From: a virus
IMG/VR virus record: IMGVR_UViG_3300043436_003709
Span: 1-47,191 of that record
DNA length: 47,191 bases
Direction: 5' to 3' (one strand)
In this document: positions 9,613-42,208 of the stretch, piece by piece
How the letters are laid out: every line of letters starts with the position of its first letter
How positions within the stretch are numbered: position 1 is the stretch's first letter
Translations under genes and position numbers: made by a program
The notes under the pieces: model-generated
The model's input: only the letters and a program-made list of their open reading frames with translations
Database searches by the model: none
Told to the model about the DNA's origin: nothing

Positions 9613-9613
9613 A

Positions 9614-10150: not shown

Positions 10151-10159
10151 ATCCCTGTA

Positions 10160-11736: not shown

Positions 11737-11756
11737 ACTGTATTTTTTATTAACTA

Positions 11757-12419: not shown

Positions 12420-14071
12420 ACTGTTAGTTTTTTAAAGTATTTGTTAAATAGTTGATCGTTGGTATAGGTATATTCTTTAGCTTTTTCAAAATTCTCTTTG
12501 ATATATTTTTCTCTAGAATAGTAGTCTTCTTCTGTTAGGGTATTGATTAGGTTAATAAGCTCTTCCTCTGTGTTAAATATAAGAAAACCTTTTGTATTAA
12601 AAAACTCACCTATGTTTTGGCAGCCTTTATAAATTGGTATAACTCCTGTTAGAAAACAATCTAATATCTTTTCTGTAAAATAATTATCATGCACTCCATT
12701 TTCAATTGCTATAGAAAATTTATATTCTTTTAATCCCTCAATCTTACCTTGAATCTCTCTCACCCCTACTCCGTAAAGGTCTACATTAGGTATCTTAAGA
12801 TTAATAATCTTTTGAACACAGCCTACTCTAAATCTATGACCTTCTGTCATTAACTTATTTGAGGTAATAAAAGAGATATGCTTTGATTTATCTTTATAGA
12901 TCTGAATTAGAGAATCGTCTTGAAGAAGTGGATGCTCTGCTTTATGAACGTTTTTATTTAAGACTACTTCATAACCTCCGTTCCTAAATACAGCATTTGG
13001 TAATTTAAGTAACTCTTTATCAAAGGTTAGTATCAAATCAAACATTTGACTATTCTCTTTCACAGCAGTATATACTTCGTTCTGAGAGAGTAAATGCGGG
13101 GCTTCATGTACATCTGCTACAATTAATCCTCTATTTACTTTTATCTCTCCTTTTACAAACTTTAATATTTCTGTATCTTCGATAAGAGTTATGTCAAATT
13201 CTCCATCCTGTAAATTATATGTATAAGAAAATGTTTGAGGTATATTATTCTTTTCTCTAAAGTTCCCCAGTACGTTTACCTGTGGTAGTTTTTCTCCTAG
13301 CAGATTTTCTCTATACTTCTTTCTATCTCTAATTTCCAATTCATACTTACTATTGTCTTTATTTTCTCTTTCGTGAGTACGGACTTGATTGGCTTTACTA
13401 TGATTGTATACACAGTCGTAGAAGTCTACTACTTGAATCTTTTCTTTAGGACACATCTCCATACATGGATATTGGAAGGCTAGGTCTGCTGCATGCCAAT
13501 AATATTCTCCGTCTTGTAGAGATCTTAAATCTTCTAGTTTAACTGCTTGTAGTAGAAATGCTCTATAAGTTCTCAAGTGAGAAGCTCTCCAATGATCTTG
13601 ACGGTAGAGTTTATGCTTATGTACAAACTCTGAATGCTCTGTTGATTGCGGGTAAGGAAGTGTTGATTCAGCATCTTCTCCATTCCATACAATAAACCCT
13701 CCGTAAGTCATCCAGCAGTCTTTTTCGTTATAAAAAGTATTAAGTTTTTCTAAAACTGTTTCGTCATATAACCAATCATCCCCATCTAAGTGAATTACGA
13801 TTTCCTCAGGATCTTCTATATAACTATTCAGATTATGAAAATAATTATACATAGCTCCTTTATTTTCAGAATTTTTTATAACATTCCAGTTAGGAAGCTC
13901 TCCTACAATCTCCTTTACTTTTTCATAGGTATTGTCTGTAGAAGCATCATCTATGTATGTAACTTTGTAATTTGTATATGTCTGATTTAGAATGCTTGCA
14001 AGATTGTATTCAATCCATTCTTCATTATTATATGAAGGAGTTATTATTCTAAACTTATTTTGCTTTTCCAT
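12416..14071 (-). CDS. Bifunctional glycosyltransferase, GT2 fused to GT10-like
   Basis: 551 residues. Residues 1-~240: GT-A, family 2, with ITPSYNNEEWIEYNLASIL, YIDDASTDNT and VIHLDGDDWL (DxD). Residues ~380-551: a fucosyltransferase-like (GT10) GT-B domain, marked by YKFSIAIENG, then YFTEKILDCFLTGVIPIYKG, the donor-binding signature of alpha-1,3-fucosyltransferases. The region between is a linker or acceptor module. Likely adds two sugars in sequence, the second a fucose-like 6-deoxy sugar, matching the 6-deoxysugar enzymes nearby. The 28-bp overlap with the preceding gene is large for this genome; the start could be slightly later. Confidence 0.8.
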   Translation of the reverse strand: MEKQNKFRIITPSYNNEEWIEYNLASILNQTYTNYKVTYIDDASTDNTYEKVKEIVGELPNWNVIKNSENKGAMYNYFHNLNSYIEDPEEIVIHLDGDDWLYDETVLEKLNTFYNEKDCWMTYGGFIVWNGEDAESTLPYPQSTEHSEFVHKHKLYRQDHWRASHLRTYRAFLLQAVKLEDLRSLQDGEYYWHAADLAFQYPCMEMCPKEKIQVVDFYDCVYNHSKANQVRTHERENKDNSKYELEIRDRKKYRENLLGEKLPQVNVLGNFREKNNIPQTFSYTYNLQDGEFDITLIEDTEILKFVKGEIKVNRGLIVADVHEAPHLLSQNEVYTAVKENSQMFDLILTFDKELLKLPNAVFRNGGYEVVLNKNVHKAEHPLLQDDSLIQIYKDKSKHISFITSNKLMTEGHRFRVGCVQKIINLKIPNVDLYGVGVREIQGKIEGLKEYKFSIAIENGVHDNYFTEKILDCFLTGVIPIYKGCQNIGEFFNTKGFLIFNTEEELINLINTLTEEDYYSREKYIKENFEKAKEYTYTNDQLFNKYFKKLTV

Positions 14072-15015
14072 TTATTTATACTATAGTATTTTTTATAATT
14101 CTCCTTAGCCGCTTTACTACACTCCTGGTAGAATTCTTCATCGTAACTCAATCTTTCAGCTAACATTGCTGCTTTTTCTACATCCTCTACATCAACTGCT
14201 AGGTCTGGATGACAAAGTCTCTGTGTATCTACTTTTTCATTTCCTATACAAGGTATTCCAAAGTAAGCACAATTTAAGCTAAAAGTTCCAGCTGCTACAG
14301 TCGGCATAAGATGTACGGCATATTTGAATGAGCTTAATTGCTTCATCCAATCTGTCCACATAACTCTTGGTAGATGCTTTACCAATTGATCTTCACCCTC
14401 TCTCATTGCATGAGAAGTCTGTCCCCATATTGGAACTTCAAACCTTTGTGCTACTGTGAAGCTTTCCATACCTCCATACCATCTAGCAAAATTCCCTCCT
14501 ATAATAACCTTTTCTTCTCTAAGAGGTTGAATATCTTGTACTATAGAATCAATCATTAAAGTAGGGATAACGTGCACAGGTACGTTAGGAAACATTCCTT
14601 TATAGTATTTTACATCATGTTCGTTGTGTGCAAAGATACCATCACAAGCTACCATCATGTTAAAGAACCTAACCTGATCGTACATATCATAATCATTCCA
14701 CCACCAGTGAGGTCCTTCTTGAACTATGTATACTTTTTTATTTGCAAGCTTTAATCTCTCTACAGGTTCTTTTATTAAAAGATCACTTACTGGATTTCTA
14801 TCCTCTACAAGTTGGCTTCCTTCGGCACTTAGGAATGTTTTTCCTTTAGGAAAAATAACAAAGATATGATCGTAACCTTCTACTTTTAAGAAATCATGAA
14901 TACAGAAATGATCAGCATTTAGTGCATGCATCCAAGCAAACTCAGTTCGCATGTTAGGATGGTTAGAGGGAATCTTTCCCTCAAAACCCATCTCTGTCAT
15001 AAATGCTATCTTCAT
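14044..15015 (-). CDS. GT-B glycosyltransferase-like protein
   Basis: 323 residues. Starts MKIAFMTEMGFEG and has GT-B character: IFAHNEHDVKYY (end of N-domain), then VHVIPTLM, and a C-domain with LMPTVAAGTFSLNCAYFGIPC, which resembles the acidic/Gly-rich donor loop region of GT4-type enzymes with A-G-T-F in place of the usual EGFG. Substrate unknown. Located 1 nt after the dehydratase gene; part of the glycan operon. Confidence 0.65.
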   Translation of the reverse strand: MKIAFMTEMGFEGKIPSNHPNMRTEFAWMHALNADHFCIHDFLKVEGYDHIFVIFPKGKTFLSAEGSQLVEDRNPVSDLLIKEPVERLKLANKKVYIVQEGPHWWWNDYDMYDQVRFFNMMVACDGIFAHNEHDVKYYKGMFPNVPVHVIPTLMIDSIVQDIQPLREEKVIIGGNFARWYGGMESFTVAQRFEVPIWGQTSHAMREGEDQLVKHLPRVMWTDWMKQLSSFKYAVHLMPTVAAGTFSLNCAYFGIPCIGNEKVDTQRLCHPDLAVDVEDVEKAAMLAERLSYDEEFYQECSKAAKENYKKYYSINKWKSKISLE

Positions 15016-15016
15016 A

Positions 15017-16327
15017 CTATTTGTTAAAGAATTTATCTACGATTGTTCCTATGTACTCTATTTGCTCTAATGTAATAACTGGAGAGCATCCTAGGAAGAA
15101 AGTATCTGTTGTTACTTTTCTCGATACTGGATACTTTTCGATTACTTCTTTTGAATCAATCAAATGAGAGTATCCTGGTTGAAGCATAATATTACCTGCA
15201 AAGTAAGGTCTTGTTTGAATCTTATTTGCTTCTAGGAATTGACAAAATTCAGATCTTGTAAACCCTACTCCGTCTCTAACTGTTAAGGCAACTGCAAACC
15301 AATCTGGATCTGATTTAGCTGTAGCTTTAGGAAGTATAAATTTATCTTCATACTTCTTAAAGATATCAACAATTGCTTTATGATTTCTTCTTCTTAGTAC
15401 TCCGATCTCCTCTAGCTTACCTAACTGAACATTCCCCATTGCTGCTTGTAACTCTGTAGGTTTTAAATTGTATCCGATCTCTTCGTAAGTATATTTGTGA
15501 TCAAATACTTCATTAGGAAGACTTGGTAACCAATTACTAAATCTGATACCACATGAACCACACTCTAAAGCATTTGCTTTACCTTGACAGTAACATCCTC
15601 TACCCCAATCTCTAAAACTTCTTAGTATCTTTTCTAGTTGTGGATCACTACATGCTACAAATCCTCCTTCACCCATTGTAATGTGATGTGCTGGATAGAA
15701 TGAACATGAAGACATTTTACCAAATGATCCTAACATCTTACCATCGTAAGTTGTTCCTAAAGCATCACAACAATCTTCTAACAGAATTAAATCGTATTTG
15801 TTTACAATTTCCATTAATCGATCCATGTTAGGTGGATTGCCCAATACGTGAGCAAATGTAATTATCTTAGCATCCGGATGATCAATGCATGCTTGCTCTA
15901 CTTGATCTAAATCTAGGTTAAGAGATTCTAATTCAATATCAACAAAGATTGGCGTAAAGCCTACCTGAATGGTAGGACTAAGTGTAGCTGGAAATCCAGC
16001 TATTGGAGTAATTACTTTTGTACCTTTTGGAAGGTTTAATCCTCTCTTAGATGTCAGAGCTAACATCATTAATAAATTAGCACTTGAACCGCTATTGACA
16101 ATAACTCCGGTCTTCTGTCCTAGCTTCTTAGGAAACTTTCTTTCAAACATTGCTCCTTCTTTTCCTAGAACTAACCATCCTTCAAGCATAGTCCTAACAA
16201 CTGCTTGAGCTTCCTGGCTATCGAAATAAGGTCCAGCATATTGAACTAAGTCCTCTCCTGCTACCCATTTCTTCTCGCTATCTTTCTTTGTAATATACTC
16301 TTGTACTAAATTTAAAATACTATCCAT
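15017..16327 (-). CDS. rfbH: RfbH/E1-type PMP-dependent nucleotide-sugar 3-dehydratase
   Basis: 436 residues, DegT/DnrJ/EryC1/StrS fold. In place of the catalytic Lys of aminotransferases it has His: SFYPAHHITMGEGG (H214-H215), as in CDP-6-deoxy-hexulose 3-dehydrase (E1, RfbH, DdhC). Cysteines C187-x57-C245-x1-C247 followed by C256/C259 nearly match the E1 [2Fe-2S] pattern C-x57-C-x1-C-x7-C. This enzyme removes the 3-hydroxyl of a 4-keto-6-deoxy sugar using PMP and a ferredoxin-type reductase (E3, not seen here). It indicates 3,6-dideoxysugar chemistry in this operon. GTTATG start context. Confidence 0.85.
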   Translation of the reverse strand: MDSILNLVQEYITKKDSEKKWVAGEDLVQYAGPYFDSQEAQAVVRTMLEGWLVLGKEGAMFERKFPKKLGQKTGVIVNSGSSANLLMMLALTSKRGLNLPKGTKVITPIAGFPATLSPTIQVGFTPIFVDIELESLNLDLDQVEQACIDHPDAKIITFAHVLGNPPNMDRLMEIVNKYDLILLEDCCDALGTTYDGKMLGSFGKMSSCSFYPAHHITMGEGGFVACSDPQLEKILRSFRDWGRGCYCQGKANALECGSCGIRFSNWLPSLPNEVFDHKYTYEEIGYNLKPTELQAAMGNVQLGKLEEIGVLRRRNHKAIVDIFKKYEDKFILPKATAKSDPDWFAVALTVRDGVGFTRSEFCQFLEANKIQTRPYFAGNIMLQPGYSHLIDSKEVIEKYPVSRKVTTDTFFLGCSPVITLEQIEYIGTIVDKFFNK

Positions 16328-16334
16328 AACTAAT

Positions 16335-16958
16335 TTATAAAGTGTCGTAATAATTATTCTGTCTTTCTTGTCTTTGGATTGTTTTTGGATGGTACAGGGA
16401 ATAATCCTCTTCCATTGGTAAAGTTGTATAGGCTTTAAATCCCTCTAACCTCTCATGAACTTTATTTATCCATTTTATCTCAGGAGTATTTCTGTAAACT
16501 CTCCATTGAAAGTCTGGCCAATTAATCCATCCTTCTGAATTTACATTCCAGTTCCATTTCTGGATATGATTCTGTGTAAGTCCTTCTACAGTATTAACTC
16601 TAGGTACCAGTATTACGTCTAGTTCAGGATTTAATTCTAGGATACTTGGTAAGGATTCTATAAGAGGTGTACAAGGAATTTCATCAGCATCTATCTGAAA
16701 GATATAATCTCCTGAACAGTATGTTGTGAGTAAGTTCTTCCAATCTGCAAAATGTCCTTGGAAGGATCCTTTATACCAGTTGAGTTCTCCGTTTACAGAT
16801 TTACTTCTAAGGTATTCTTCAACTCCTTCATCTCCACTACCTTGATCATAAAGTACCACTATTTGATCTTCTTTTCTTTTATTCTTTAAAAGAAATGTAA
16901 TAAGTTTCTGTATTTCCAAAAACTCATCCCTTACTGTTATTGCATAAGTTATTTTCAT
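16335..16958 (-). CDS. Family 2 glycosyltransferase (WaaE/KdtX-like)
   Basis: 207 residues, compact GT-A enzyme: MKITYAITVRDEFLEI at the start, LYDQGSGDEGVEEYL, FQIDADEIP (DxD at about 107), and WINKVHERLEG near the end, which is the conserved WxxxVHE block of WaaE/KdtX-type beta-glycosyltransferases. The ATG is only 3 nt after the -7 box of the promoter at 16962-16992, so its mRNA may be leaderless; the MKITYAITV strand makes a later start unlikely. Confidence 0.8.
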   Translation of the reverse strand: MKITYAITVRDEFLEIQKLITFLLKNKRKEDQIVVLYDQGSGDEGVEEYLRSKSVNGELNWYKGSFQGHFADWKNLLTTYCSGDYIFQIDADEIPCTPLIESLPSILELNPELDVILVPRVNTVEGLTQNHIQKWNWNVNSEGWINWPDFQWRVYRNTPEIKWINKVHERLEGFKAYTTLPMEEDYSLYHPKTIQRQERQNNYYDTL

Positions 16959-16961
16959 ACA

Positions 16962-16992
16962 TTAATATATGAACTTTATTCTTTATCTGCAA
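16962..16992 (-). promoter_or_regulatory. Class I promoter at the head of the glycan operon
   Basis: TTG (16992-16990), 20 bases, TATATTAA (16969-16962). The -33 lies in the last codons of the upstream gene. Only three bases separate the -7 box from the ATG at 16958, implying a leaderless or very short-leader transcript. Confidence 0.75.
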
Positions 16993-17437
16993 CTTCTATC
17001 TCAAAAAATCCTATCATCTCTAAAGCATCTATAAAATCTCTTTGTCCAAACATCTGAGCATTTCTCATATCCATTTTATGTGTTTGACCTTTAGGGAAGT
17101 TTGCTTTTTCTTCCTCTGTAATCTCAATAGCTTTTACTGCAGACCACATCCAGTTATCTTTCGATGTACCGTCTAAGAATACCATTCCTTTTCCTGGAAG
17201 AGTAATTGTGGAAGGAAACCATACTTGACTATCTTTGTCAACATACATTATATCTTTGTAGAGTTCTGGTGCTGATTCTATTGCCTGTACTACAGCAGGA
17301 CTTCCAACTTTCATTACTGATGAGGATGATTTTCCGCATCCAAAACAAAGCCAAGTTGTTAAATCTTTTTCTATTTGCTGTTCATAACATGCATTACTCC
17401 CTCCACAAGGGCAATCCATTAATTGATCTTTTTCCAT
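16976..17437 (-). CDS. Conserved phage zinc-ribbon protein, 153 aa
   Basis: N-terminal C9-P-C11 and C31-F-G-C34 (WLCFGCGKSS) make a zinc ribbon. The rest (ELYKDIMYVD, VWFPSTITLPGKGMVFLDG, THKMDMRNAQMF, DFIDALEMIGFF) matches a hypothetical protein I recall from T4-like cyanophages and marine myoviruses. No function known. It is located between the two glycan sub-blocks and its 3' end contains the -33 of the next promoter. Confidence 0.7.
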   Translation of the reverse strand: MEKDQLMDCPCGGSNACYEQQIEKDLTTWLCFGCGKSSSSVMKVGSPAVVQAIESAPELYKDIMYVDKDSQVWFPSTITLPGKGMVFLDGTSKDNWMWSAVKAIEITEEEKANFPKGQTHKMDMRNAQMFGQRDFIDALEMIGFFEIEVADKE

Positions 17438-17439
17438 TA

Positions 17440-17973
17440 TTATATTTTTTTAGTTATTACGTAATTTCCTTTACTATTCTGGAGATTATATTGATTGTCT
17501 GTGTTCAATTTACTGAACATATTGTAAAAGTAGCTGTATCTGTCGTCCTCAAGTCCGTCACCGTCAAAAGGTGTAAAAGATATCCCACTAACCCTTCCTG
17601 ATCTTAGCAAAGGAGCTATCTCAGTACTTAGAACTTTCTGTAAAAATAAAGCTTTTAGCAACCTATTAGGATCTTTATCATTCCATTTGTACTGCTGCAA
17701 TGTATTTGGTGCGTTTAAATTTCCAAATTTTAATTCGTGGTATTTACTATCAGGATCATACACTAACCTAACTTCAAAAGGAGTGCTTGTTTCATCCCCT
17801 ACAAACTCCATAGGCTTAAAAACTCTTACGTCTCCTATATGAGCTGTCTTTACTGTCCATTGAGTAATTTCATTTAGAATATATTGTTTGGTAACCTCTT
17901 TCCTTTCAGCTAAGTTTGTATATTTACCTAATGTTTGATAAATCTCAGTTGCTAGTACTGTCAAGGCTCTCAT
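17440..17973 (-). CDS. Conserved phage hypothetical protein, 177 aa
   Basis: C-terminal block GISFTPFDGDGLEDDRYSYF followed by NMFSKLNTDNQYNL and YVITKK resembles a hypothetical protein found in T4-like marine phages. The N-terminus is helical (VLATEIYQTLGKY). No catalytic motif visible. Spaced 2 nt from the gene after it and directly abutting the glycosyltransferase gene upstream. Confidence 0.6.
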   Translation of the reverse strand: MRALTVLATEIYQTLGKYTNLAERKEVTKQYILNEITQWTVKTAHIGDVRVFKPMEFVGDETSTPFEVRLVYDPDSKYHELKFGNLNAPNTLQQYKWNDKDPNRLLKALFLQKVLSTEIAPLLRSGRVSGISFTPFDGDGLEDDRYSYFYNMFSKLNTDNQYNLQNSKGNYVITKKI

Positions 17974-19269
17974 CTATTCTATTTTTTTTAATTGTGGTAA
18001 TTGTATCTTCTTTAATTGAGGTAATTTTAACTGTACCTGCTTTGGAAATTCAGGAATATGCTGTGTTAGAAGGTTATTTAGCGTCTCTCTCATCTTTTCA
18101 TACGAGAATTGTGTTCTACTCTTATGTCCTTGTCTTTTAGCTAAAGGTTTCCATTTACCGTAATTGTCGTATATATCTTTAAACGCCTGCCCTACTTGAA
18201 CTGGATCTGCAGAAAACCATTGACTCTCTCTAAGTAACATCTTATCGACTGCTGCTGACGGATGTACGTTAGTAAGAGTTCCTCCTACGTACTTTACAAA
18301 TTCCTTATCAAGAAAATCCATGTGCCCTGACCAAGCTGATGCTATTATTGGTTTATTTACTAAGCTAAACTCTAGTAAAGGTCTTCCAAATCCTTCTCCT
18401 TTAGTTAGAGAAACCATTGCTTTTACCTTACCGTAGTTATATAGTTCGTTAATCTCTGTATCGGTCATATCACCGTGGAGTAAGTATATGTTTGGTAAAT
18501 CACCTTTAACAGTCTTTCTTATTGCATCTATCCTATCTAGTAGTTCTTCTCTATCCATAATAGATGTTCCTGATCCTGCTTGTACTTTTAATAGTAGGGC
18601 TGGTTTTTTTCCTCTAGGTTTATTTTTAAATGTTTCTAAGAAAGCTTTTATAGTATATCCAATATTCTTTCTATCCTCTCCTAAAGCTCCTGGTAGCCAG
18701 TGTCCTACTGCTAGAAAACAAAACATCTCATCTATCTCTTCGAATTTAAGCTTTGTAGGAAATGCAAGTGGACAATATTTTTCGATATCAACTCCTTCGA
18801 ATAGTACTTCAACCTTTGTACTTAGCTCTACTGTTCCTGTTACTTGTCCTGTTCTATTGTCTTGCATATTGAATTTAGACTCTTCAAACACCTTCTTACC
18901 ATGCTCAGAAGATACCAATACTAAATCCATATTATTACATCCCTGAATCCAGGAAGGATCACAAAGTGTTGTTTCGATACCGGCTGTTACTCCGATGTTA
19001 TATTTACCGACCTTTTGAAATTCATTTGGTACTGTAATCTGAATCCAGATATCTGGCTGTTGAGTTAGTTGTGGGATGATTCTAGAAGACAAAGATTCAT
19101 TGTTATGATCTTTTAAGTATCCAAATCTAGTATTACCCCATCTCTGGGAAAGTATTTTTACATCGTACTTATCTAAATCGATAATTGATTGTACAAAGTC
19201 TCTTGCTCTTGCTCCATATCCTGAGTAAGTGTCAACTGGGCAGCTTACTACTAATGTTGGTTTGCTCAT
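17974..19269 (-). CDS. Family 4-like glycosyltransferase
   Basis: 431 residues, GT-B fold. N-domain begins TLVVSCPVDTYSGYGARAR; C-domain has FLAVGHWLPGALGEDRKNIG, YLLHGDMTDTEINELY and the donor-phosphate signature TKGEGFGRPLLEFSLVNKPI (E-x7-E type) at about 290-310. The C-terminal 20 residues contain a tandem duplication of QLPQLKKI, possibly recent slippage. Family 4 enzymes are retaining transferases; substrate unknown. GTTATG start. Confidence 0.85.
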   Translation of the reverse strand: MSKPTLVVSCPVDTYSGYGARARDFVQSIIDLDKYDVKILSQRWGNTRFGYLKDHNNESLSSRIIPQLTQQPDIWIQITVPNEFQKVGKYNIGVTAGIETTLCDPSWIQGCNNMDLVLVSSEHGKKVFEESKFNMQDNRTGQVTGTVELSTKVEVLFEGVDIEKYCPLAFPTKLKFEEIDEMFCFLAVGHWLPGALGEDRKNIGYTIKAFLETFKNKPRGKKPALLLKVQAGSGTSIMDREELLDRIDAIRKTVKGDLPNIYLLHGDMTDTEINELYNYGKVKAMVSLTKGEGFGRPLLEFSLVNKPIIASAWSGHMDFLDKEFVKYVGGTLTNVHPSAAVDKMLLRESQWFSADPVQVGQAFKDIYDNYGKWKPLAKRQGHKSRTQFSYEKMRETLNNLLTQHIPEFPKQVQLKLPQLKKIQLPQLKKIE

Positions 19270-19271
19270 AA

Positions 19272-20714
19272 CTAGTATAGTAATTTATGTGTTATACGTT
19301 TTTTAGGCCTGTCTGTAATCTTATGTAATTCAAATCTTGCTCTTGGAACAAACTTTTCAAATGATTCATCCATTGCATCGATTATATTCTCGCACATCTG
19401 TCTTGCTGACATTCCTGATTCATCAGATGTTACCCATTCTCTTGCTTTCAATCCTTTAGCATCTCTTTCTTCTTTTGGCATATTATATGCCTGTAAAATA
19501 GCTTTTGCTACATCTTCTGGTGCACATCTATCATCGAAAATATAAGGAGTTGGAACTGAACCTACTAGTGATATGTTTGAAGGAAATACTGGGATAGCCC
19601 ACTCTCCACACTCCTTATAAGTGCCTCTATGGTTGGAAGGGAAATCAGGAGTAAAATCAATCCACTTACCATTTTCGTCTGTAAATCTCATCTGATCTTG
19701 CATACCTCCGGTTACATTGGCAATAATCATTCTACCTGCCATCATAGTCTCTGTCAGAGATAATCCCCATCCTTCGTTTGAAGTAATTAGTAATCCTATA
19801 TCAGCTGCATTGTAAAGTAAATTCATCTGAGGAGTGTCTAACTTATCTTGAGAGAAAAATACATTTGTATTTTCATCACATAAAGCTTCTCTTACTGCAT
19901 AAAGATCTGTACCGTTTTCATCGACAGCCTGTGTATGCATTACTAAAGCACATTTCTTAGCTTTCTCTTCTCCAATCATATCACAGAATAGCTTATAAGA
20001 AAATATTACATCTCCTGGAGATTTTCTTCTGATGTTTCTAGAATTAAATACTACTACGAAGTCAAATTCCTTTCCTTGAAACATATTCTTTTTGAACTCT
20101 TGAAGTAGTTCAAAATTCTCATGACCTTCTCTAATAGGGAAGAAATATTTATCATTTATTCCATGAGGAACATATTTAATAATTTTATCTTTAGCTGACT
20201 CTCCTAAAACTATTTCGTTGATATTTTTAGTTTGTTTTGAGATAGCCATTAACAAGTCACATGATTCGTAATAAGATTTGTTATATAAAGGTGCTGGAAG
20301 ATCATCCCAGATGTTTAGGTAGTGAATTGGAATTTCATTTCTGATCTCTCTTTCAATTTCAAACAACCAAGTCCAATATCTTGGATCAGTGAAGATAAAA
20401 ATAGCATCTGGTTTTTCTTGAGCTACTAAGTTTCTTATTTGCATTGCATCTCCATATCCATTATTGGGAAGTACTCTTACCCAGGCATCTTCAATACCGG
20501 CGAATTTATTTACATCTGAGGATATATCAAGACCTTTTCCTACTTCAGGGTGATTGATTGCTGCTCCAAGATTTATCCAATTAAAGTGATGTGCTGTTCC
20601 TACAACAATCTCTCTTGCCATAGTTGCGATACCGGAATGCATCCTAATATCATCGCATAACAAAAGAATCTTTTTACGATCCTCTTTCTTAACATAACGA
20701 AATTTTTCTTTCAT
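19272..20714 (-). CDS. Family 4-like glycosyltransferase, 480 aa
   Basis: GT-B enzyme. N-domain: ILLLCDDIRMHSGIATMAREI, the GxGG-like acceptor loop replaced by HSGIA. C-domain: VVFNSRNIRRKSPGDVIFSY (start), NVFFSQDKLDTPQMNLLYNA and ITSNEGWGLSLTETMMAGR, with the Glu pair of the donor site. C-terminal tail is basic. 2 nt before the next glycosyltransferase, so these two form a pair. Acceptors unknown. Confidence 0.85.
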   Translation of the reverse strand: MKEKFRYVKKEDRKKILLLCDDIRMHSGIATMAREIVVGTAHHFNWINLGAAINHPEVGKGLDISSDVNKFAGIEDAWVRVLPNNGYGDAMQIRNLVAQEKPDAIFIFTDPRYWTWLFEIEREIRNEIPIHYLNIWDDLPAPLYNKSYYESCDLLMAISKQTKNINEIVLGESAKDKIIKYVPHGINDKYFFPIREGHENFELLQEFKKNMFQGKEFDFVVVFNSRNIRRKSPGDVIFSYKLFCDMIGEEKAKKCALVMHTQAVDENGTDLYAVREALCDENTNVFFSQDKLDTPQMNLLYNAADIGLLITSNEGWGLSLTETMMAGRMIIANVTGGMQDQMRFTDENGKWIDFTPDFPSNHRGTYKECGEWAIPVFPSNISLVGSVPTPYIFDDRCAPEDVAKAILQAYNMPKEERDAKGLKAREWVTSDESGMSARQMCENIIDAMDESFEKFVPRARFELHKITDRPKKRITHKLLY

Positions 20715-22190: not shown

Positions 22191-22195
22191 GCCTT
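22174..22195 (-). terminator. Terminator of the lysis operon
   Basis: Minus-strand stem AAGGCTTGT / ACAAGTCTT (one G-T pair), loop TTTT, followed by TTTTTC. It begins at the stop codon of the spanin-like gene and its 3' T-run merges into the promoter at 22160. Confidence 0.85.
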
Positions 22196-22595
22196 ATTTA
22201 ATTAAAAGATATGATGTAGTTAGTATACCTACAATAGTTCCAACTTTCCATATAAAGGTTTTAGTCCTCTGACTTTTTAATTCTTTATGTAATTGTTCTG
22301 AAAGTTCTTTTGATAGCTGTAATTGATCGTTTTGAGTATTAATAATTAATTGGTTATTTTTATCTTTACTTTCTAATAGAGAGATAATTGTATCTTTTTG
22401 AGTTTCTCTTGCTTCTAGTTTTATTACCTTTTCTTGAGTAAGTTTTAATTCTTCCTTATATCTATCTCCAAGTATTAAATCCTTTACTATAAGTTTAGCA
22501 ATTGGTGTATTAATTTTTACCTTCGTTGTATCTGTCTGCGAAAAACTGTTCAAGCTCAGAAGCAGAATAGTTACTAATAACATTAATTTTTTCAT
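22194..22595 (-). CDS. Putative spanin-type protein with signal peptide and C-terminal TM
   Basis: 133 residues. Residues 1-19 are a signal peptide (MKKLMLLVTILLLSLNSFSQ), residues ~45-110 are a long coiled coil, and residues ~113-132 (TFIWKVGTIVGILTTSYLLI) form a C-terminal membrane helix. Unimolecular spanins have an exported N-terminus, coiled coil and C-terminal TM, but they usually carry a lipobox Cys, absent here. It overlaps the preceding coiled-coil gene by 86 bp, as Rz/Rz1 pairs often do. Last gene of the lysis operon. Confidence 0.55.
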   Translation of the reverse strand: MKKLMLLVTILLLSLNSFSQTDTTKVKINTPIAKLIVKDLILGDRYKEELKLTQEKVIKLEARETQKDTIISLLESKDKNNQLIINTQNDQLQLSKELSEQLHKELKSQRTKTFIWKVGTIVGILTTSYLLIK

Positions 22596-22857
22596 CTGTT
22601 TGTTGTTTGATTATAGATATATTGTTATCTATATGGTGAATTTCTTTTGTGATATTAACTACGTTGTCTTTCACTGAGTCTATTTTAGTGTCAATTTTTT
22701 CATTAATTATTTGTGCTGAGTCTATTTTAGTTTGAAGTGCTTCAATTTTGTCTTTATAAACCTTTACATCAGTCCTAATACTGTTAGTAGTAAAAATACT
22801 ATAACCCAGTAGTATAACTATAATAATAAGTAAAATATTTTGTTTATTTTGTAACAT
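22510..22857 (-). CDS. Putative inner-membrane spanin (Rz-like)
   Basis: 115 residues: N-terminal TM (NILLIIIVILLGYSIF), then a coiled coil of about 90 residues (VYKDKIEALQTKIDSAQIIN and following heptads). This is the layout of i-spanins, which link inner to outer membrane in the last step of lysis. Position right after the holin gene and 14-bp overlap with it support this. Long overlap with the next gene in another frame also fits a spanin pair. Confidence 0.6.
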   Translation of the reverse strand: MLQNKQNILLIIIVILLGYSIFTTNSIRTDVKVYKDKIEALQTKIDSAQIINEKIDTKIDSVKDNVVNITKEIHHIDNNISIIKQQTDEKINVISNYSASELEQFFADRYNEGKN

Positions 22858-23278
22858 TTCGTTCTCCCTTATGTTTATCTAGTTTATCTAAGATTTGAGT
22901 CAGTAATTCATTCTTAACTACTCCTACCATTGAGGCATTTTTTAGAATAGAGATTAACTGGAATACTAGGAATGGAGCCATAATTGTCTCACTTAACCAT
23001 GATGTTCCAGCAAATCCTTTTTCTATTGTTAGAATAGCAGATAACATTACTATCCAAAATCCAAATGTTCTTAGTACTTTTAATGCTTTGCGAGTTTGAA
23101 AACCTTCTTTTTTTATTCCAGACCATACACCAAAAAATCCATCAGCAAATACTACAAATGCTACTGAAAGATATTGTTCAATGTTGTCCATTGTTAGTTC
23201 CATAAAATAGGAACTTATGAATGCTAATGCTGTTGTCAATGTAAGTGTAATTATTAATGAGGCTTTCATCTTATACAT
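22844..23278 (-). CDS. Holin, phage_holin_4-like
   Basis: 144 residues with about four hydrophobic segments (~5-23, ~38-52, ~72-86, ~100-112) and a charged C-terminus (KLDKHKGERN). VVFADGFFGVWSGIKKEGF followed by KALKVLRTFGFW is the pattern of phage_holin_4/toxin-secretion holins. It is placed between endolysin and spanin-like genes. Two starts are possible (23278 or 23269); the first has the GTTATG context. Confidence 0.75.
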   Translation of the reverse strand: MYKMKASLIITLTLTTALAFISSYFMELTMDNIEQYLSVAFVVFADGFFGVWSGIKKEGFQTRKALKVLRTFGFWIVMLSAILTIEKGFAGTSWLSETIMAPFLVFQLISILKNASMVGVVKNELLTQILDKLDKHKGERNVTK

Positions 23279-23280: not shown

Positions 23281-23898
23281 CTATTTTACAAATTCATAAT
23301 ATTTTTTAGTTTTCTCATTTCTGTCTTGAAGACCATGTGTACCACCGTTTATACGTTTTGTAAGAGCTAGAATGGCTGCATCGTTTATTCCTTGATCACA
23401 AATTGACCATAACTTATTTTTATCAAAGAAGAACATAGCTGATTCAAATGCATAAACTGTAGCTACTAGATCAGGGTTGGTCATAATTTCTGGTTTGTCT
23501 AAGTACTTAGCAAACTCAGCATAATTTGATTTACCAGTTAATTGAAGAGCTCCTCTTCCTCTAAACTTCCAACCATCTCCTGAGGCTATATCTCCATTAC
23601 CCATTCTTGAGGCATATACTACATTTGCTATTTTCTCAGCATTTCTTGCAAAAGCATTAGCGTCTCTTCCAGCATTTTTAAAATACTTAGGGAAAATTTT
23701 ATTTAATCCTGCTGCAGAGTAGTTTAGGTTTTCTGAGAATAATTTATACCCTCCTGTTTCGTGAGAGGTTTGTGCAAAGAAATGTGCAGCTCTTACGGGA
23801 GTTAATTTATAAAACTCCATTGCTTTTTTCATTGTTCCAGGACCGAATGCTCCATCTGCTGTTACTCCAATTTTTGTTTGTAGACTTCTTAAACTCAT
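23281..23898 (-). CDS. Endolysin, glycoside hydrolase family 19
   Basis: 205 residues. Residues 1-~30 are a short peptidoglycan-binding-like segment (GVTADGAFGPGTMKKAMEFY). The GH19 (chitinase/lysozyme) core follows: AHFFAQTSHETGGYKLFSEN, with the catalytic Glu in HETGG, then LNYSAAGL, and the second conserved block GWKFRGRGALQLTGKSNYAE. It cleaves the glycan strand of peptidoglycan. No signal peptide, so it depends on the holin. Complete and of normal length. Confidence 0.9.
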   Translation of the reverse strand: MSLRSLQTKIGVTADGAFGPGTMKKAMEFYKLTPVRAAHFFAQTSHETGGYKLFSENLNYSAAGLNKIFPKYFKNAGRDANAFARNAEKIANVVYASRMGNGDIASGDGWKFRGRGALQLTGKSNYAEFAKYLDKPEIMTNPDLVATVYAFESAMFFFDKNKLWSICDQGINDAAILALTKRINGGTHGLQDRNEKTKKYYEFVK

Positions 23899-23922: not shown

Positions 23923-24660
23923 CTATTTACTTTCTGTTGCATATTTAACTCCCATAATGGTACCTACAATGGAAAAGGCATTGGTTAATAAAATACCAAA
24001 CATATTTGACCATGTTGATCCAATTATCTGTGTATCTTTAGAGGTATATATGGCAAGGCAGTACATAATCGATGTTATCACTCCTACTCCTATTATTACC
24101 ATTAACGCAACTTTAACTACCACTCCTACTAATTCTGACTGGCTTTTCTTTATTAGTACATCTAAATCATTTAATGCATTATTTTTTTCAATCTCAATTG
24201 AATTTTTTAATGCTTCGGATTTTTCTAATTCTAATTTTAAATCCTCAGTTAATTTTTCAATCTTCTTTCCAGCTTCAATAGTTTCAGTAATGTCTGAAGC
24301 TATTTTCATTACTTTTGAAATCTTTCCATTTTCATCGAAAATGGGATTATAAGTTGCTTGCAAATAAATGGCAGTACCATCACGTTTTACTCTTTCAATT
24401 TCTCCAGAAAAAAATTCACCTCTTCTTAATGTTTTCCAAAAATCTTCATATTCTTTTGAATCTGCATAGGATGGCTTGACAAATATACTATGATGTCTGC
24501 CAATAATTTTGGGAGAATCACTTACTTTATATCCTAAAGTTTGCAAAAATATACTATTGGCCTGAAGGATGATACCATCCAGATCAAACTCAATAATAGC
24601 ACTACTCTTATCAATTGCTTCCAATCGACTCAGTAATTCTGAGTTGTTTAATTTTTTCAT
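23923..24660 (-). CDS. PAS-domain membrane protein in the lysis cassette
   Basis: The reading frame extends to a TTG at 24678, but the first ATG is 24660, used here (245 residues, MKKLNNSELL). Residues ~12-125: PAS domain (IIEFDLDGIILQANSIFL, GRHHSIFVKP, FFSGEIERVKRDGT, YNPIFDENGKISKVMKIASD), as in Aer/MCP-type sensors. Residues ~127-175: coiled coil. Then two membrane helices, ~178-203 and ~217-238. It lies between the endolysin and a small holin-like gene. No kinase, HAMP or methyl-accepting part is present. A role as a signal-sensing holin or holin regulator is inferred. Confidence 0.8.
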   Translation of the reverse strand: MKKLNNSELLSRLEAIDKSSAIIEFDLDGIILQANSIFLQTLGYKVSDSPKIIGRHHSIFVKPSYADSKEYEDFWKTLRRGEFFSGEIERVKRDGTAIYLQATYNPIFDENGKISKVMKIASDITETIEAGKKIEKLTEDLKLELEKSEALKNSIEIEKNNALNDLDVLIKKSQSELVGVVVKVALMVIIGVGVITSIMYCLAIYTSKDTQIIGSTWSNMFGILLTNAFSIVGTIMGVKYATESK

Positions 24661-24680: not shown

Positions 24681-24986
24681 CTATTCTTCTGTATTCTTAT
24701 TACCTCCTTTAAAACCTGCAAATTTTTCAATTACATCTGGAAGGAATGAACCTAATGTAATGTACATGAATGCATCAAAGATGTACTCGTTTAATTCTAA
24801 AGGTTTGCCAAGGTAACCTGTTATAAGGTCTACTATAATAGCAATTACCATTACCATGAATGACATGAATCCAATTACAACTTTTTCGTTGTAGTCGTTT
24901 GATTTTTTAAAGATACTGAAAAATCCCATAAAATAATTTTTTAAGTTAGTTAGTACATAACGAATTGGTAATAACAAATTTTTCAT
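24681..24986 (-). CDS. Holin-like two-TM protein, 101 aa
   Basis: Two hydrophobic segments (~39-57 VVIGFMSFMVMVIAIIVDL, ~70-85 DAFMYITLGSFLPDVI) separated by a short loop, with a charged C-terminus (KGGNKNTEE). First gene of the lysis run, 20 nt before the PAS gene. Small size and position suggest a holin or antiholin; no family named with certainty. A class II motif lies upstream. Confidence 0.55.
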   Translation of the reverse strand: MKNLLLPIRYVLTNLKNYFMGFFSIFKKSNDYNEKVVIGFMSFMVMVIAIIVDLITGYLGKPLELNEYIFDAFMYITLGSFLPDVIEKFAGFKGGNKNTEE

Positions 24987-26127: not shown

Positions 26128-28070
<1,943 letters not shown>

Positions 28071-32344: not shown

Positions 32345-33268
32345 CTATTGTCTAAGAGTTTTTTCTAACCTACATCTTACGTCCGGGAAGAATGTAGGAA
32401 TTAAGTGTTTATGTGTAGCTCTTATTGGATTAATATCTAAACCTCCCCTTCTTGTGTACATGGCACATACCATCAACTCTTCTGGAGAGTATGCTTTCAA
32501 TAAATGCATAAAGACCATTTCAACAATTTCTTCATGGAAATGTGATACCTGTCTGTGACTTACAATATACTTTGCTAATGATTGTAAATTAGGAACAACT
32601 CCTGCTTTAGGCTTGATATGAATAAATACATCACCCCAGTCTGGTTGATTTGTTACTCTACAATTTGATCTTAAAAGATTTGATTGTACTTTTATTTCTC
32701 CTATTTCGAAGTCATCATCTACTTCGTCTGCTTCCAATTGTGTAGCATCTGAATGATAAGAAGTAAATTCAATTGCATTTAAGTCAACCAAAGCATCCAA
32801 TGGTGCATATCCTCTAAAGGCATAGCTTGGAGTATGGTCTGAGGTAAACATCTCTACTTCTACTTTTGTTTGTAGTAAGTCGGATAAATCTCTTTTTACT
32901 CTGTCTTTTAAAATTGCAATACATTCATGATCTGTATCTCCCATTTGAGTCATATTAAATGAATTCAAATACAATTTAATTGATTTAGACTCTACGTGTA
33001 GTTTTGAATCTGCTGGATACCAGATCTTTAACATTCCAACTACTGGAAGTCCTTTTGTAGTGATTGCTGATACTTCGTATGCATTCCAAACATCTCCTCC
33101 AACGAATGGTAAGTTGTTGTCATCTATTCCGTATGCTTCTCTGTTTAAGTATCTAGGAATTTCTACTAATAGACTTGGATCATAAGTATCTTTATACCCT
33201 TCTCCTCCTACTTTACCGAGATGTTTTCCTGCGATTGCAATTACTGCTTCTTGATTTAATTCTGCCAT
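32345..33268 (-). CDS. queF: QueF, NADPH-dependent preQ0 reductase
   Basis: 307 residues, the two-domain (E. coli type) enzyme. The QueF motif ESKSIKLYLNSFNM is present, and the second half has LLRSNCRVTNQPDWGDVFIH (catalytic Cys), then SHRQVSHFHEEIVEMVF (active Glu-His) and YTRRGGLDINPIRA. It reduces 7-cyano-7-deazaguanine to 7-aminomethyl-7-deazaguanine (preQ1). Directly upstream of genes for kinase, formyltransferase and DpdA-like protein, so it probably feeds DNA modification rather than tRNA queuosine. Slightly longer than E. coli QueF. Confidence 0.9.
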   Translation of the reverse strand: MAELNQEAVIAIAGKHLGKVGGEGYKDTYDPSLLVEIPRYLNREAYGIDDNNLPFVGGDVWNAYEVSAITTKGLPVVGMLKIWYPADSKLHVESKSIKLYLNSFNMTQMGDTDHECIAILKDRVKRDLSDLLQTKVEVEMFTSDHTPSYAFRGYAPLDALVDLNAIEFTSYHSDATQLEADEVDDDFEIGEIKVQSNLLRSNCRVTNQPDWGDVFIHIKPKAGVVPNLQSLAKYIVSHRQVSHFHEEIVEMVFMHLLKAYSPEELMVCAMYTRRGGLDINPIRATHKHLIPTFFPDVRCRLEKTLRQ

Positions 33269-33269
33269 A

Positions 33270-33794
33270 TTATTTTATATAGTTTAATATTTGTTCAACT
33301 CTTTGTTTAGGACTTCCTGTTACTGTTAAATAATCTCCTCCTAATGTCTTAATTACCTCTAAATTACTTCTAAATTGATTATCAATTTTAGTTCTCCATT
33401 CCTCATTTACACTTCTTACTCCATCGTCTACTGATCTAAACTCAATAGGAAAATAGATATAATGTGTATATTGATCTTTAACTCTTGTCCAAGTATCTAG
33501 AATATAATCATATGCACTATTGGATAAATTATCCATATAAGTAGAATATACTACTAAATCTAAATAACATCTATCCAATATCACATCTTTAGGACAAAGC
33601 AATGCTTCTAAGTGGAAAGAAGATATAGCAAGCTGTGTTTCAGAAGTTCCTTGTTCGTTAATAGGAAATCCATATTTACCAACTGTTCTTGTTGATTCGT
33701 TTATAAAATTAAACTTTGGTAATCTATCTTTTAATAATTCATAAACAGTAGTCTTTCCTACTGATGATGCTCCTACTAATGCTACTCTTTTCAT
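33270..33794 (-). CDS. P-loop kinase (AAA_28/NadR-like)
   Basis: I start at the ATG 33794 (MKRVALVGASSVGKTTVYEL), 2 nt after the upstream stop, dropping nine residues of the longer frame. 174 residues. Walker A GASSVGKTT, then ESTRTVGK, LDRCYLDLVVYS (the D-R of the lid-nucleoside-kinase type). It resembles AAA_28/NadR-type and deoxynucleoside-kinase-like P-loop proteins. Substrate unknown; placed between queF and the formyltransferase gene, so a role in base or nucleotide modification is plausible. Confidence 0.75.
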   Translation of the reverse strand: MKRVALVGASSVGKTTVYELLKDRLPKFNFINESTRTVGKYGFPINEQGTSETQLAISSFHLEALLCPKDVILDRCYLDLVVYSTYMDNLSNSAYDYILDTWTRVKDQYTHYIYFPIEFRSVDDGVRSVNEEWRTKIDNQFRSNLEVIKTLGGDYLTVTGSPKQRVEQILNYIK

Positions 33795-33796
33795 AA

Positions 33797-34324
33797 CTAA
33801 TTTTTTAAAAAGTCTACCCAAAGACTTACTGATATACTGTGTAATATACGAAATACTTCTCCAATCTCCAACCCTTTTATAGAAACTTTTCTACTACGAA
33901 GTATCTCTCCTTCGTCAACTCCTTCTGTTACTCTATGAATAACACATCCGGAAGATTCTAATCCTAAGTCGAAAGCCTTTTGCTGAGGATCTTTTCCTTT
34001 TAATATCTCGTGTTCTGTAATTAATCCTGGATGTCCGTTATAGATTTCAAATCGATTACAGATATTCGGAGGCATAATTCGTAACCATCCATGTAGAGTT
34101 ATAATAGGATCTTTGTAGTTAGAAAGTATTTGTAAGAGTTCTTCTTCTGTAGGTTTATTTTCTACAAAGATTAAATGCCTATCCTTTAAAGCTGGATGAA
34201 TCTTTCTTATGTGCTCTGGTCTTTTATTTGTAATTATCAGATCAGGCCATCTTCCTAGTAGCTTTGATACTTCTACAATCTCTGATCCTGTTTGACTAAA
34301 AAATGCTATATGTATCCTATTCAC
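33797..34324 (-). CDS. PurN-type formyltransferase
   Basis: 175 residues. Starts with GTG (34324); no ATG is nearby and the codon before it is a stop. The catalytic triad of formyltransferases is visible: YNGHPG (Asn, His) and VTEGVDEGEIL (Asp), with GWLRIMPP ahead. It resembles GAR transformylase but is in a modification-gene run; the acceptor is more likely the aminomethyl group of preQ1 (see findings). Uses 10-formyl-tetrahydrofolate in the known family. Eight nt after the DpdA-like gene. Confidence 0.75.
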   Translation of the reverse strand: MNRIHIAFFSQTGSEIVEVSKLLGRWPDLIITNKRPEHIRKIHPALKDRHLIFVENKPTEEELLQILSNYKDPIITLHGWLRIMPPNICNRFEIYNGHPGLITEHEILKGKDPQQKAFDLGLESSGCVIHRVTEGVDEGEILRSRKVSIKGLEIGEVFRILHSISVSLWVDFLKN

Positions 34325-34332
34325 CTACTACC

Positions 34333-35133
34333 TTATACTTTCTTTCCATTTACAAGCCAATTAAACTTATGAATATTCCCCTGAACTTTGTTTAGGTCTA
34401 TCTTATCTGCAGGATAGTTTATGAGTTCAAATAATTTTTGTGAATCTTTATGCCATAATCCCATCTCTCCATAGGATGTTCCTTTTATTCCTGCTACCAC
34501 TGGATTGGAAGTATCTAGAGAGTATATCCATTTATAATCTGAGTAGAAGGAGAATTCTAAGGCAATCGAACAGCCTAATAAGTGGTGTTTCTTTTTCTCA
34601 TTTATAATACCGTCTCTCAATAAATCTCCCAGTAGCTTAACCCTTCCCATACACCAGCTTACCAGTTTATTAGGATGAGGAAAAGTCTGCGTATAATACG
34701 AATAGTCAAATGAAATTGCAATCATATCTACATTTGCAATCTTATCCATATACTCGTAACATGTCTTAATCTGCTCGTAAGTCTTTCCTTGAACAACTCC
34801 TATTTTCTTTCCTGGGAGATTTTTATGTTTGTTATTCCATTCTGTCATTTGTTGTACGGTCTTCTTTGTATCTTCTAAAGCATCTGGAACTATATACCAA
34901 TCTGGTTTTAGTTCTAATACCCAACCTGCAAACTTCTCTGCATCAAAAGCTTCTTCTAATTCAAAAATAGAATTATCTAAAATAATTTCCCTACCTGCTT
35001 CTTTAGCTTGTTTAAATAAAGCTAAATACTCAGGATCTTCTTCCATTAAATGTACTAATGCATAATCTCCGTCAGTAATTTTTTGAACCTCCTTAAATAT
35101 ACTTTTCGGTGCTTCGTGGTAAATTTTAATCAT
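34333..35133 (-). CDS. dpdA: DpdA-like DNA guanine transglycosylase (TGT family)
   Basis: 266 residues. Stretches IILDNSIFELEEAF, WYIVPDALEDTKKT and IGVVQGKTYEQIKTCY, then AISFDYSYY and SLDTSNPV follow the order of phage transglycosylases that swap guanine for 7-deazaguanine in DNA; the two Asp residues (VPD, SLD) are the likely catalytic pair. The Zn-binding Cys/His cluster of tRNA-guanine transglycosylase is missing, as in DpdA. Its neighbours (queF, folE2, queD, queE) complete the pathway. Symbol given for family resemblance. Confidence 0.75.
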   Translation of the reverse strand: MIKIYHEAPKSIFKEVQKITDGDYALVHLMEEDPEYLALFKQAKEAGREIILDNSIFELEEAFDAEKFAGWVLELKPDWYIVPDALEDTKKTVQQMTEWNNKHKNLPGKKIGVVQGKTYEQIKTCYEYMDKIANVDMIAISFDYSYYTQTFPHPNKLVSWCMGRVKLLGDLLRDGIINEKKKHHLLGCSIALEFSFYSDYKWIYSLDTSNPVVAGIKGTSYGEMGLWHKDSQKLFELINYPADKIDLNKVQGNIHKFNWLVNGKKV

Positions 35134-35326
35134 TTTCTTGGGCTAAATTATCTAAATCTTCAAATATTCCTTCCATTTGTGCTGTAATACTGTTTAACGT
35201 CTCCTGTAATTGCTCATCAATAGACAGTTCGATTGCTTTGTATGCTACAGACAAGGGAACCATATCTGTATGTAAAGTATCAATATATACTTTATTCTTT
35301 TCTAAAAAGTCAATTGCTTCTTGCAT
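35126..35326 (-). CDS. Hypothetical protein, 66 aa
   Basis: Acidic helical protein (AIDFLEKNKVYIDTLHTDMV, AQMEGIFEDLDNLAQEN). No family recognised. Its stop overlaps the DpdA-like start by 8 bp; 1 nt after the MazG-like gene. Possibly a small partner. Confidence 0.55.
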   Translation of the reverse strand: MQEAIDFLEKNKVYIDTLHTDMVPLSVAYKAIELSIDEQLQETLNSITAQMEGIFEDLDNLAQEND

Positions 35327-35327
35327 C

Positions 35328-35990
35328 TTATTCTCCTGTTAGTTGTTTTAAATACGGTTTCTGAATTTCCTTGTCTGTGAAAAATTGTTTTAGGTTCGGT
35401 CTAAAATAGTTTACATTTTTCATTACTTTTCTATCTCTTGAACGGTACACTACATAAAAATCTCCAACTTTTTCGTAATGACATTCCTCACCTTGTTCAC
35501 TCGATCTTTGAATGACAGTTGCTTGAGCTTCTTCTTCTGTTTTGCAAGCTTTAGACAAATTTGACGCTTGTACTTCTTGATATGCCGGCCATATCTTATC
35601 CTTAAGGCCATGTAACATAGTACCGTTCCCAGTGGCAACATAAGTAATATCGCACAAAGCATCCAGAACCTCGATGATGTCTCCTTTCTCGCAAGCTTCT
35701 CTATATTCTTCCAATTCCTCAAGGATGAAATTGTATACAAATTCCCATTCTTTTCTTTCTGGTACGGTTGGTTCATAATTATTTGGTTTGCCCATTACGG
35801 CATTAAATTCTTCTACTTCGTCAATAAAAGGTACTGAAATTCTTTTTAGATCTCTAATTTCATTTTTACGAATACTTATTTCCTCTATAACATCATCTCC
35901 AAGTTCAATCTTGGACATCATTACAAGGTCTACAATTTGTGAGTGGAGTAATTCTAATAACTCATCTTGCCTTTGTTCTAATTTAGTCAT
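35328..35990 (-). CDS. MazG-like nucleotide pyrophosphohydrolase
   Basis: Start moved from 36047 to the ATG at 35990 (MTKLEQRQDELLELL) because the promoter -7 box is at 36005-36012. 220 residues. FILEELEEYREACEKGDIIE and LDALCDITYVATGNG contain the acidic EELxE...ExxD...D residues of all-alpha NTP-PPases, then YQEVQASNLSKACKTEEEA. Such enzymes hydrolyse (d)NTPs to NMP and PPi; in a modification operon it may remove unwanted nucleotides. C-terminal ~60 residues are extra. Confidence 0.75.
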   Translation of the reverse strand: MTKLEQRQDELLELLHSQIVDLVMMSKIELGDDVIEEISIRKNEIRDLKRISVPFIDEVEEFNAVMGKPNNYEPTVPERKEWEFVYNFILEELEEYREACEKGDIIEVLDALCDITYVATGNGTMLHGLKDKIWPAYQEVQASNLSKACKTEEEAQATVIQRSSEQGEECHYEKVGDFYVVYRSRDRKVMKNVNYFRPNLKQFFTDKEIQKPYLKQLTGE

Positions 35991-36004
35991 AACTTTATTT
36001 TTTA

Positions 36005-36035
36005 TTAATATAAGAAATTGGCTCCGAAGAGCCAA
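36005..36035 (-). promoter_or_regulatory. Class I promoter for the MazG-DpdA-QueF operon
   Basis: TTG (36035-36033), 20 bases, TATATTAA (36012-36005), 14 nt before the ATG at 35990. Its TTG is in the hairpin at 36018-36035. Confidence 0.8.
36018..36035 (-). terminator. UUCG hairpin, terminator of DUF4494 gene
   Basis: Minus-strand stem TTGGCTC / GAGCCAA with loop TTCG, followed by TTTC. Weak T-tract. It is the same design as at 6662-6679. Confidence 0.6.
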
Positions 36036-36039
36036 CCTA

Positions 36040-36237
36040 TTATTCAATTACTTTTAGAATCTTTGATTGATTAACTCCTACTACTGTGAAGTTAGACTCT
36101 CCTTCGAACTCTTTATAGATCTTTGCTTCAGCATCTGTTGCTGAGATTGCATCTACTAAGTATAATTCTTTTACTCTTTGGATACGACCTCTGTCGTTCT
36201 CATGCTCCAACTGCACTGTTACTTGCCAATAATTCAT
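36040..36237 (-). CDS. DUF4494 protein, 65 aa
   Basis: MNYWQVTVQLEHENDRGRIQ followed by VKELYLVDAISATDAEAKI is the DUF4494 family pattern, a small protein of Bacteroidota and their phages. No known function; the order beta-strand then helix is typical. Between FolE2 and the promoter for the MazG gene. Confidence 0.8.
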   Translation of the reverse strand: MNYWQVTVQLEHENDRGRIQRVKELYLVDAISATDAEAKIYKEFEGESNFTVVGVNQSKILKVIE

Positions 36238-36249
36238 TTTTATTTGTTT

Positions 36250-37248: not shown

Positions 37249-37288
37249 TTTTTAATGTTTTTTATGGAGGTTCTACGACTCCTTTTTA

Positions 37289-37319
37289 TTAATATAACAT
37301 TTTTTATTCTATCTTGCAA
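37289..37319 (-). promoter_or_regulatory. Class I promoter for folE2
   Basis: TTG (37319-37317), 20 bases, TATATTAA (37296-37289). The TTG directly follows the TAG stop of the phosphoribosyltransferase gene (TAGTTG). Confidence 0.8.
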
Positions 37320-37715: not shown

Positions 37716-37719
37716 ATTA

Positions 37720-38013: not shown

Positions 38014-38024
38014 AGTAATTTGTG

Positions 38025-38210: not shown

Positions 38211-38211
38211 A

Positions 38212-42186: not shown

Positions 42187-42199
42187 ACTTTTTCTTTAT

Positions 42200-42208
42200 T
42201 ATAAATAG
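42200..42208 (-). promoter_or_regulatory. Class II motif CTATTTATA
   Basis: Minus-strand GCTATTTATAATAAAG, 13 nt before the ATG of the GIY-YIG gene at 42186. Same form as at 32301-32309 (CCTATTTATAATAAAG). Confidence 0.5.

Follow-up and report, generated by a model that had tools for sequence, protein, structure and literature searches.

Phage lysis is commonly pictured as timed by an intrinsic holin clock, which in a few phages is modified by antiholins. A phage-encoded PAS receptor that leads to lysis is VqmA_phage of phage VP882, which responds to the host autoinducer DPO. VqmA_phage shares with the protein described here that it is phage-encoded and contains a PAS domain, but it works at the lysis-lysogeny switch by binding DNA and activating transcription, and is not a membrane protein of the lysis cassette. 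Class II holins, which possess two transmembrane (TM) helices in an N-in/C-in arrangement, resemble the TM hairpin studied here in TM number, likely orientation and endolysin-side location, whereas the hairpin protein carries a large N-terminal sensor or receiver-linked domain and shows no family match. In the bacterial CheA–CheY–flagellar switch pathway, a kinase signals via a stand-alone receiver to a membrane-bound partner. The same order of kinase, stand-alone receiver and protein target, with intact motifs, is found in relatives of the locus described here, yet in this case the system is phage-encoded, located in lysis regions and equipped with its own two-TM target gene in the cassette. 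Lysis inhibition in phage T4 involves the holin T and the antiholin RI, which is believed to respond to the DNA of a superinfecting phage and to keep the holin in check (PMC8385771). The likeness to the present case would lie in a lysis timing controlled by a putative condition-sensing protein; RI, however, is periplasmic and contains no PAS, GAF or kinase, while here cytoplasmic sensing is fused or signalled to a TM hairpin. Family searches revealed no relation of the hairpin protein to T4 T or RI.

An earlier note on this DNA knew of no described lysis protein combining a PAS domain with membrane helices, and a search of open-access PMC full texts indeed yielded none, nor any description of such a sensor or phosphorelay lysis system. 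What is new is the combination: no lysis system described in these texts is wired in this way and the membrane family is absent from all libraries searched, its function being what we infer below.

A PAS–hairpin protein between lysis genes

All data were obtained in silico from metagenomic contigs. The window, i.e. the whole stretch of DNA analysed, is a virus record of 47,191 bases. The gene under study is encoded on the minus strand (the earlier note gave none), and its features and those of its neighbours are as follows:

23923..24660 (including the stop codon), minus strand: PAS–coiled-coil–2TM protein, 245 aa, ATG at 24660
24283..24597, minus strand: PAS domain, residues 22-126 (Pfam PAS_9, E=4.7e-12; kinase-proximal type of phage kinases according to the PAS tree)
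24136..24282, minus strand: signalling helix / coiled coil, residues ~127-175 (AF2 helix; alignment with unfused effectors)
24046..24132, minus strand: TM helix 1, residues ~177-205 (hydropathy and AF2)
23938..24030, minus strand: TM helix 2, residues ~211-241, near-invariant QIIGSTWSNMFGILLTNAFSIVGTIMGVKYA (conservation, hairpin alignment A1)
24681..24986, minus strand: 101-aa 2-TM holin-like protein of the hol2 family, a recurrent neighbour (holin PHROG match weak, E=0.31)
23281..23898, minus strand: GH19 endolysin (PF00182, 5e-9; phrog_181, 1.8e-59)
22844..23278, minus strand: Phage_holin_4_1 family holin (PF05105, 2.7e-7; phrog_199, 7.6e-5)
22510..22857, minus strand: i-spanin-like protein with N-terminal TM and coiled coil (several weak Rz-like PHROG matches, E 0.05-0.2)
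22194..22595, minus strand: candidate second spanin with signal peptide, coiled coil and C-terminal TM (suggested by overlap with the i-spanin-like gene and by position; no family match)

An in-frame TTG at 24678, further upstream, is a less likely start than the ATG. Since orthologues of the protein retain 59-73% identity over their full length in dozens of phages, the reading frame is not a chance one. The PAS assignment is supported by two curated profiles of the superfamily (PF13426, 46.5 bits at a cut-off of 27; PF08447, 43.9 bits at a cut-off of 25.6) as well as by the NCBIfam sensory_box model (7.2e-15). AlphaFold2 places behind the PAS domain an unbroken helix from residue 125 to 205, in which the coiled coil runs into TM1, followed by a helix from residue 211 to 243, in a model of moderate confidence (mean pLDDT only 70). 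By hydropathy, the two C-terminal segments span residues of about 177-205 and 217-241. Pfam, hydropathy and AlphaFold2 hence bear out the layout given in the earlier note, a 245-residue protein with PAS, coiled coil and two C-terminal TM helices between a GH19 endolysin and a holin-like gene, and its statement that kinase or signalling output is missing also holds, as neither a kinase nor another catalytic domain was found in the protein.

All genes of the cassette lie on one strand and are transcribed in the order 101-aa 2-TM gene, PAS-hairpin gene, GH19 endolysin, Phage_holin_4_1 and the two overlapping spanin-like genes, with gaps of 20-24 nt flanking the PAS-hairpin gene. Close upstream of the lysis genes the window encodes a groEL (544 aa) and groES (101 aa) pair (26128-28070, minus strand). 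Elsewhere on the minus strand it carries a glycosyltransferase/sugar-nucleotide island (7622-20714; two GtrB-like genes, NDP-sugar epimerase, aminotransferase and glycosyltransferase), GTP cyclohydrolase-like, QueE-like radical SAM and MazG-like genes (32345-39048), which are possibly a deazaguanine DNA-modification set, and a homing endonuclease (phrog_314) adjoining a thymidylate synthase whose 358 aa exceed the matched profile span (41464-43326).

A hairpin family with three input wirings

A first scan of IMG/VR returned 275 relatives, many of which match only residues 130-245 and possess a different N-terminus, while others match the PAS domain alone. Scanning IMG/VR with a profile of the hairpin (alignment A1) raised the number to at least 531 relatives, whereas the same profile found a single locus in 84,980 bacterial and archaeal genomes, on a 16.8-kb contig of an uncultured-bacterium bin in which the kinase-receiver version described below is present too. 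The TM hairpin is thus a family of its own and nearly virus-specific. It bears no Pfam, NCBIfam or PADLOC name, and none of the holin families of Pfam, PHROGs or NCBIfam matches it; membership in a defence system was dismissed for want of a PADLOC match. Only phrog_1544, an unannotated PHROGs entry of 200 aa, is weakly matched, the window protein reaching E=3.7e-4 and the protein of locus L059 1.3e-5; the aligned part comprises coiled coil and hairpin, and some of the likeness may stem from coiled-coil composition. When 50,697 phage records were searched by tblastn with the PAS-TM protein, an unfused hairpin and the receiver, any matches were to PAS or were noise, with none credible for the hairpin, and a phage kinase used as query retrieved generic PAS and histidine kinase matches. 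The hairpin profile found in the PDB weak coiled-coil noise only (interferon gamma), and a BFVD fold search returned the phage relatives A0A6J5L941, labelled 'histidine kinase', and A0A6J5PRT3, uncharacterised, neither with a lysis annotation. Homology to the neighbouring hol2 family was likewise discarded, as hhalign detects none (probability 0.5%).

TM2 is near-invariant over 69 aligned non-redundant copies. This invariance is partly inflated by ascertainment, because TM2 peptides were among the search patterns; it is also seen in kinase-adjacent hairpins that were found via the kinase PAS (e.g. L036-L039, L041 and L066).

Clustering at 95% identity left a non-redundant set of 73 hairpin genes, in which three kinds of input can be distinguished. 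In the most frequent one (52/73), the cassette ends, all on the same strand, with a histidine kinase, a single-domain receiver and the hairpin protein. The kinase (HATPase_c, 3.2e-14) usually contains one or two PAS domains and sometimes a GAF domain, the receiver directly before the hairpin gene comprises about 143 aa (PF00072, E=4.1e-9), and the hairpin protein possesses an extra N-terminal domain of about 75 aa, hereafter N-domain, which occurs in all kinase-receiver copies and in no sensor-fused copy. Locus L114 is a 53rd receiver-carrying case, whose receiver was missed by ORF calling and recovered by a later search. In 17 of the 73 genes, including that of the window, one or two PAS domains take the place of the N-domain, and kinase and receiver are missing. 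Two further genes (L123, L125) have a GAF domain fused to the hairpin (PF01590, E=2.3e-17 and 6.3e-18). Searches of 14 PAS-fused and 2 GAF-fused records, several of them short fragments, turned up neither a relative of the phage receiver nor a HATPase_c, and the 47-kb record of the window phage, possibly incomplete, contains no histidine kinase, receiver or receiver-linked N-domain. The one exception to this pattern is L103 (5574-6230), an N-domain hairpin gene in a 177-kb record without kinase or receiver anywhere; its gene order resembles that of the related locus L067, where both are present.

By their motifs, kinase and receiver of these relatives look functional. The 53 kinases compared retain the H-box RHDMHSGINTY and DNGxG as well as the N-box Asn, and a few of them, mostly second ones in tandem loci, vary in N-box spacing or G2 motif; the 52 receivers retain the acidic pair (DD), the phospho-Asp (FVDLN), Ser and Lys. 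Tandem kinases before one receiver occur at L065, L089, L093, L098, L108 and L111, where the second kinase frequently departs from the usual G2 motif and lacks a recognised PAS. At two loci (L046, 964-1860; L055, 3452-4348) we observed 298-aa kinases with two N-terminal hydrophobic segments, lacking PAS and GAF, with GH19 close by. The receiver lacks a DNA-binding domain and must therefore act by contacting a protein, for which the product of the adjacent hairpin gene would be the obvious candidate. The occurrence of the same hairpin behind a histidine kinase and receiver or fused to a GAF domain strongly supports the proposal of the earlier note that the signal enters through the PAS and the response is given by the TM hairpin, and the window protein looks like a compact one-protein form of a two-component system.

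In a tree of the hairpin, limited to 92 columns, the PAS-fused copies form one supported clade (99/96) beside the kinase-receiver copies, while the GAF-fused copies are placed elsewhere. The hairpin was therefore rewired separately at least twice. In the PAS tree, whose finer branching is weak, the fused PAS falls with the second PAS of the phage kinases, the kinase-proximal one, and apart from the first; the fused GAF shares 54-64% identity with its counterpart in phage kinases. Hence, the sensor joined to the hairpin is of the domain kind that feeds the kinase in relatives. The trees are unrooted; from the wider distribution of the kinase form we infer that it is ancestral.

Linkage to cell-wall enzymes

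The earlier note had named a consistent absence of orthologues from lysis genes as a finding that would refute a role in lysis. This objection clearly fails. To evaluate the linkage, we used 36 non-redundant PAS-fused loci flanked on either side by 1.5 kb or more. A cell-wall enzyme is located within 4 kb, mostly adjacent, in 34 of them, i.e. an M15 peptidase in 18, GH19 in 12, GH24 in one and less certain candidates in three. The partner enzyme is thus exchanged among at least three unrelated families (GH19, M15, GH24) while the linkage persists. The three weaker calls arise because the label 'LDT' of a recurrent neighbour of about 201 aa is a guess for a protein with no Pfam match. With its two TM helices and its place in a lysis cassette at these 34 loci, the protein also agrees with a definition of holins as having at least one TM helix and a gene in the lysis cassette. 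In the kinase-receiver version a wall enzyme lies within 5 kb in 36 of 52 cases and none was recognised in the remaining 16. Another holin-like gene is found nearby at most loci, including the window, and in some fused loci none was recognised.

As a control, GH19, M15_3 and phage-lysozyme genes were located in 28 whole records of 53-430 kb. Here, the nearest wall enzyme lies within 5 kb of the hairpin gene in 20 of 25 enzyme-bearing records compared to 3.05 expected under uniform placement (P=9e-16), and for GH19 alone in 16 of 20 records compared to 1.9 expected (P=1.9e-14), values which are indicative only, since uniform placement takes no account of the modular build of phage genomes and the records are in part related to one another. 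Hairpin and wall enzyme are far apart at L123 (91 kb), L103 (77 kb), L099 (53 kb) and L024 (18 kb). A neighbour of L123 shows, by eye, a T9SS-like C-terminal domain, on which basis the host is probably a member of the Bacteroidota. A recurrent protein of about 200 aa with the motif NWSEGCQVFK (L071, 1763-2368; L083, L100 and others) sits beside GH19 or other lysis genes, has no significant family match and is possibly a new wall enzyme.

PAS signal and proposed mode of action

The closest structural relatives of the window PAS are the flavin PAS domains of MmoS (3ewk), NifL (2gj3) and Aer (8dik), which serve as redox sensors, along with short LOV proteins. In this respect the 'Aer/MCP-type' label of the earlier note is appropriate for the fold class, but it does not extend to the flavin-contact residues of Aer, MmoS and NifL, which are not matched; the window PAS, by contrast, belongs to the kinase-proximal type that stands second in the phage kinases. 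The positions of the FAD-binding residues R57, H58 and D60 of Aer are occupied by V, K and S, the NR-x-K motif reads ER-V-K, and only the Trp of the FW/MW motif is common to the window PAS and the Aer-type FAD site. Because the Aer-type FAD residues are absent, the suggestion that a redox signal is read through this PAS is not supported, and redox/FAD was demoted as its signal. In the phage kinases redox sensing is plausible from sequence, as aligned examples of their first PAS carry the flavin-type NR-x-KDG motif (NifL match 3.5e-31).

Taken together, we regard the window protein as probably a signal-gated membrane effector of phage lysis, most likely an antiholin-like or holin-activating regulator. 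Hereby, the cytoplasmic PAS would detect an intracellular or membrane cue, and its state would shift the register of the continuous helix whose membrane part is TM1, so that the TM1-TM2 hairpin would take up one state or another and thereby restrain or license the holin or holins beside it. In the relatives, phosphotransfer from the kinase to the single-domain receiver and docking of the phospho-receiver on the N-domain of the separate hairpin protein would drive the same hairpin and act on it as the PAS does.

Instead of acting on a holin, the PAS-hairpin could itself be the pore-forming holin, N-in/C-in and class II-like with the PAS as gate, leaving to hol2 or Phage_holin_4_1 the role of antiholin or another step. 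Two TM helices, a short loop and a place beside the endolysin fit a class II holin, the polar and small residues along TM2 are highly conserved, and in some fused loci no other holin candidate is recognised nearby. However, the majority of loci, the window among them, do have such a gene close by, the hairpin lacks a holin family match, known holins diverge fast whereas TM2 is near-invariant here, and TM2 shows no significant amphipathic moment (p=0.13). We therefore consider a pore-forming role unlikely. A late membrane signalling protein outside lysis, serving superinfection exclusion, membrane-stress signalling or host takeover and merely sharing the late lysis operon, would account for the kinase-receiver copies without a recognised wall enzyme within 5 kb; it appears rather unlikely in view of a linkage which survives the exchange of GH19, M15 and GH24 and recurs in 20 of 25 records as large as 53-430 kb.

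It is also conceivable, with a still lower probability, that the PAS is a degenerate dimerisation module and not a sensor, and the protein a constitutive membrane scaffold. The absence of Aer/MmoS-type flavin residues would agree with such a module, while the second PAS of NifL, which relays without a cofactor, illustrates that a PAS may do without one. Against decay of the domain argue the core motifs HHSIF, FWxxL, GExER and QATYNPI, which are invariant across the clade. Moreover, the PAS slot is filled elsewhere by a ligand-sensing GAF or by a domain tied to a catalytically intact kinase-receiver pair, which would be hard to understand if no input were needed.

Returning to the signal-gated effector, the sensor wirings found on a hairpin of the lysis region make it appear that these phages assess conditions ahead of host lysis. 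For a large group of environmental phages there is, in our estimate, an even chance that a two-component pathway leading from a PAS/GAF kinase via a receiver to the hairpin decides the time of lysis and was compressed at least twice into sensor-gated switches, one of which is the window gene. If true, a phosphorelay or a PAS/GAF sensor acting on a membrane protein of the lysis cassette would make the measurement of the cell by phages before they kill it directly testable, with the kinase His, the receiver Asp, the PAS pocket and the hairpin as defined parts. The natural swaps of sensors on one output would moreover provide modular material with which to ask how membrane proteins are driven by sensory helices.
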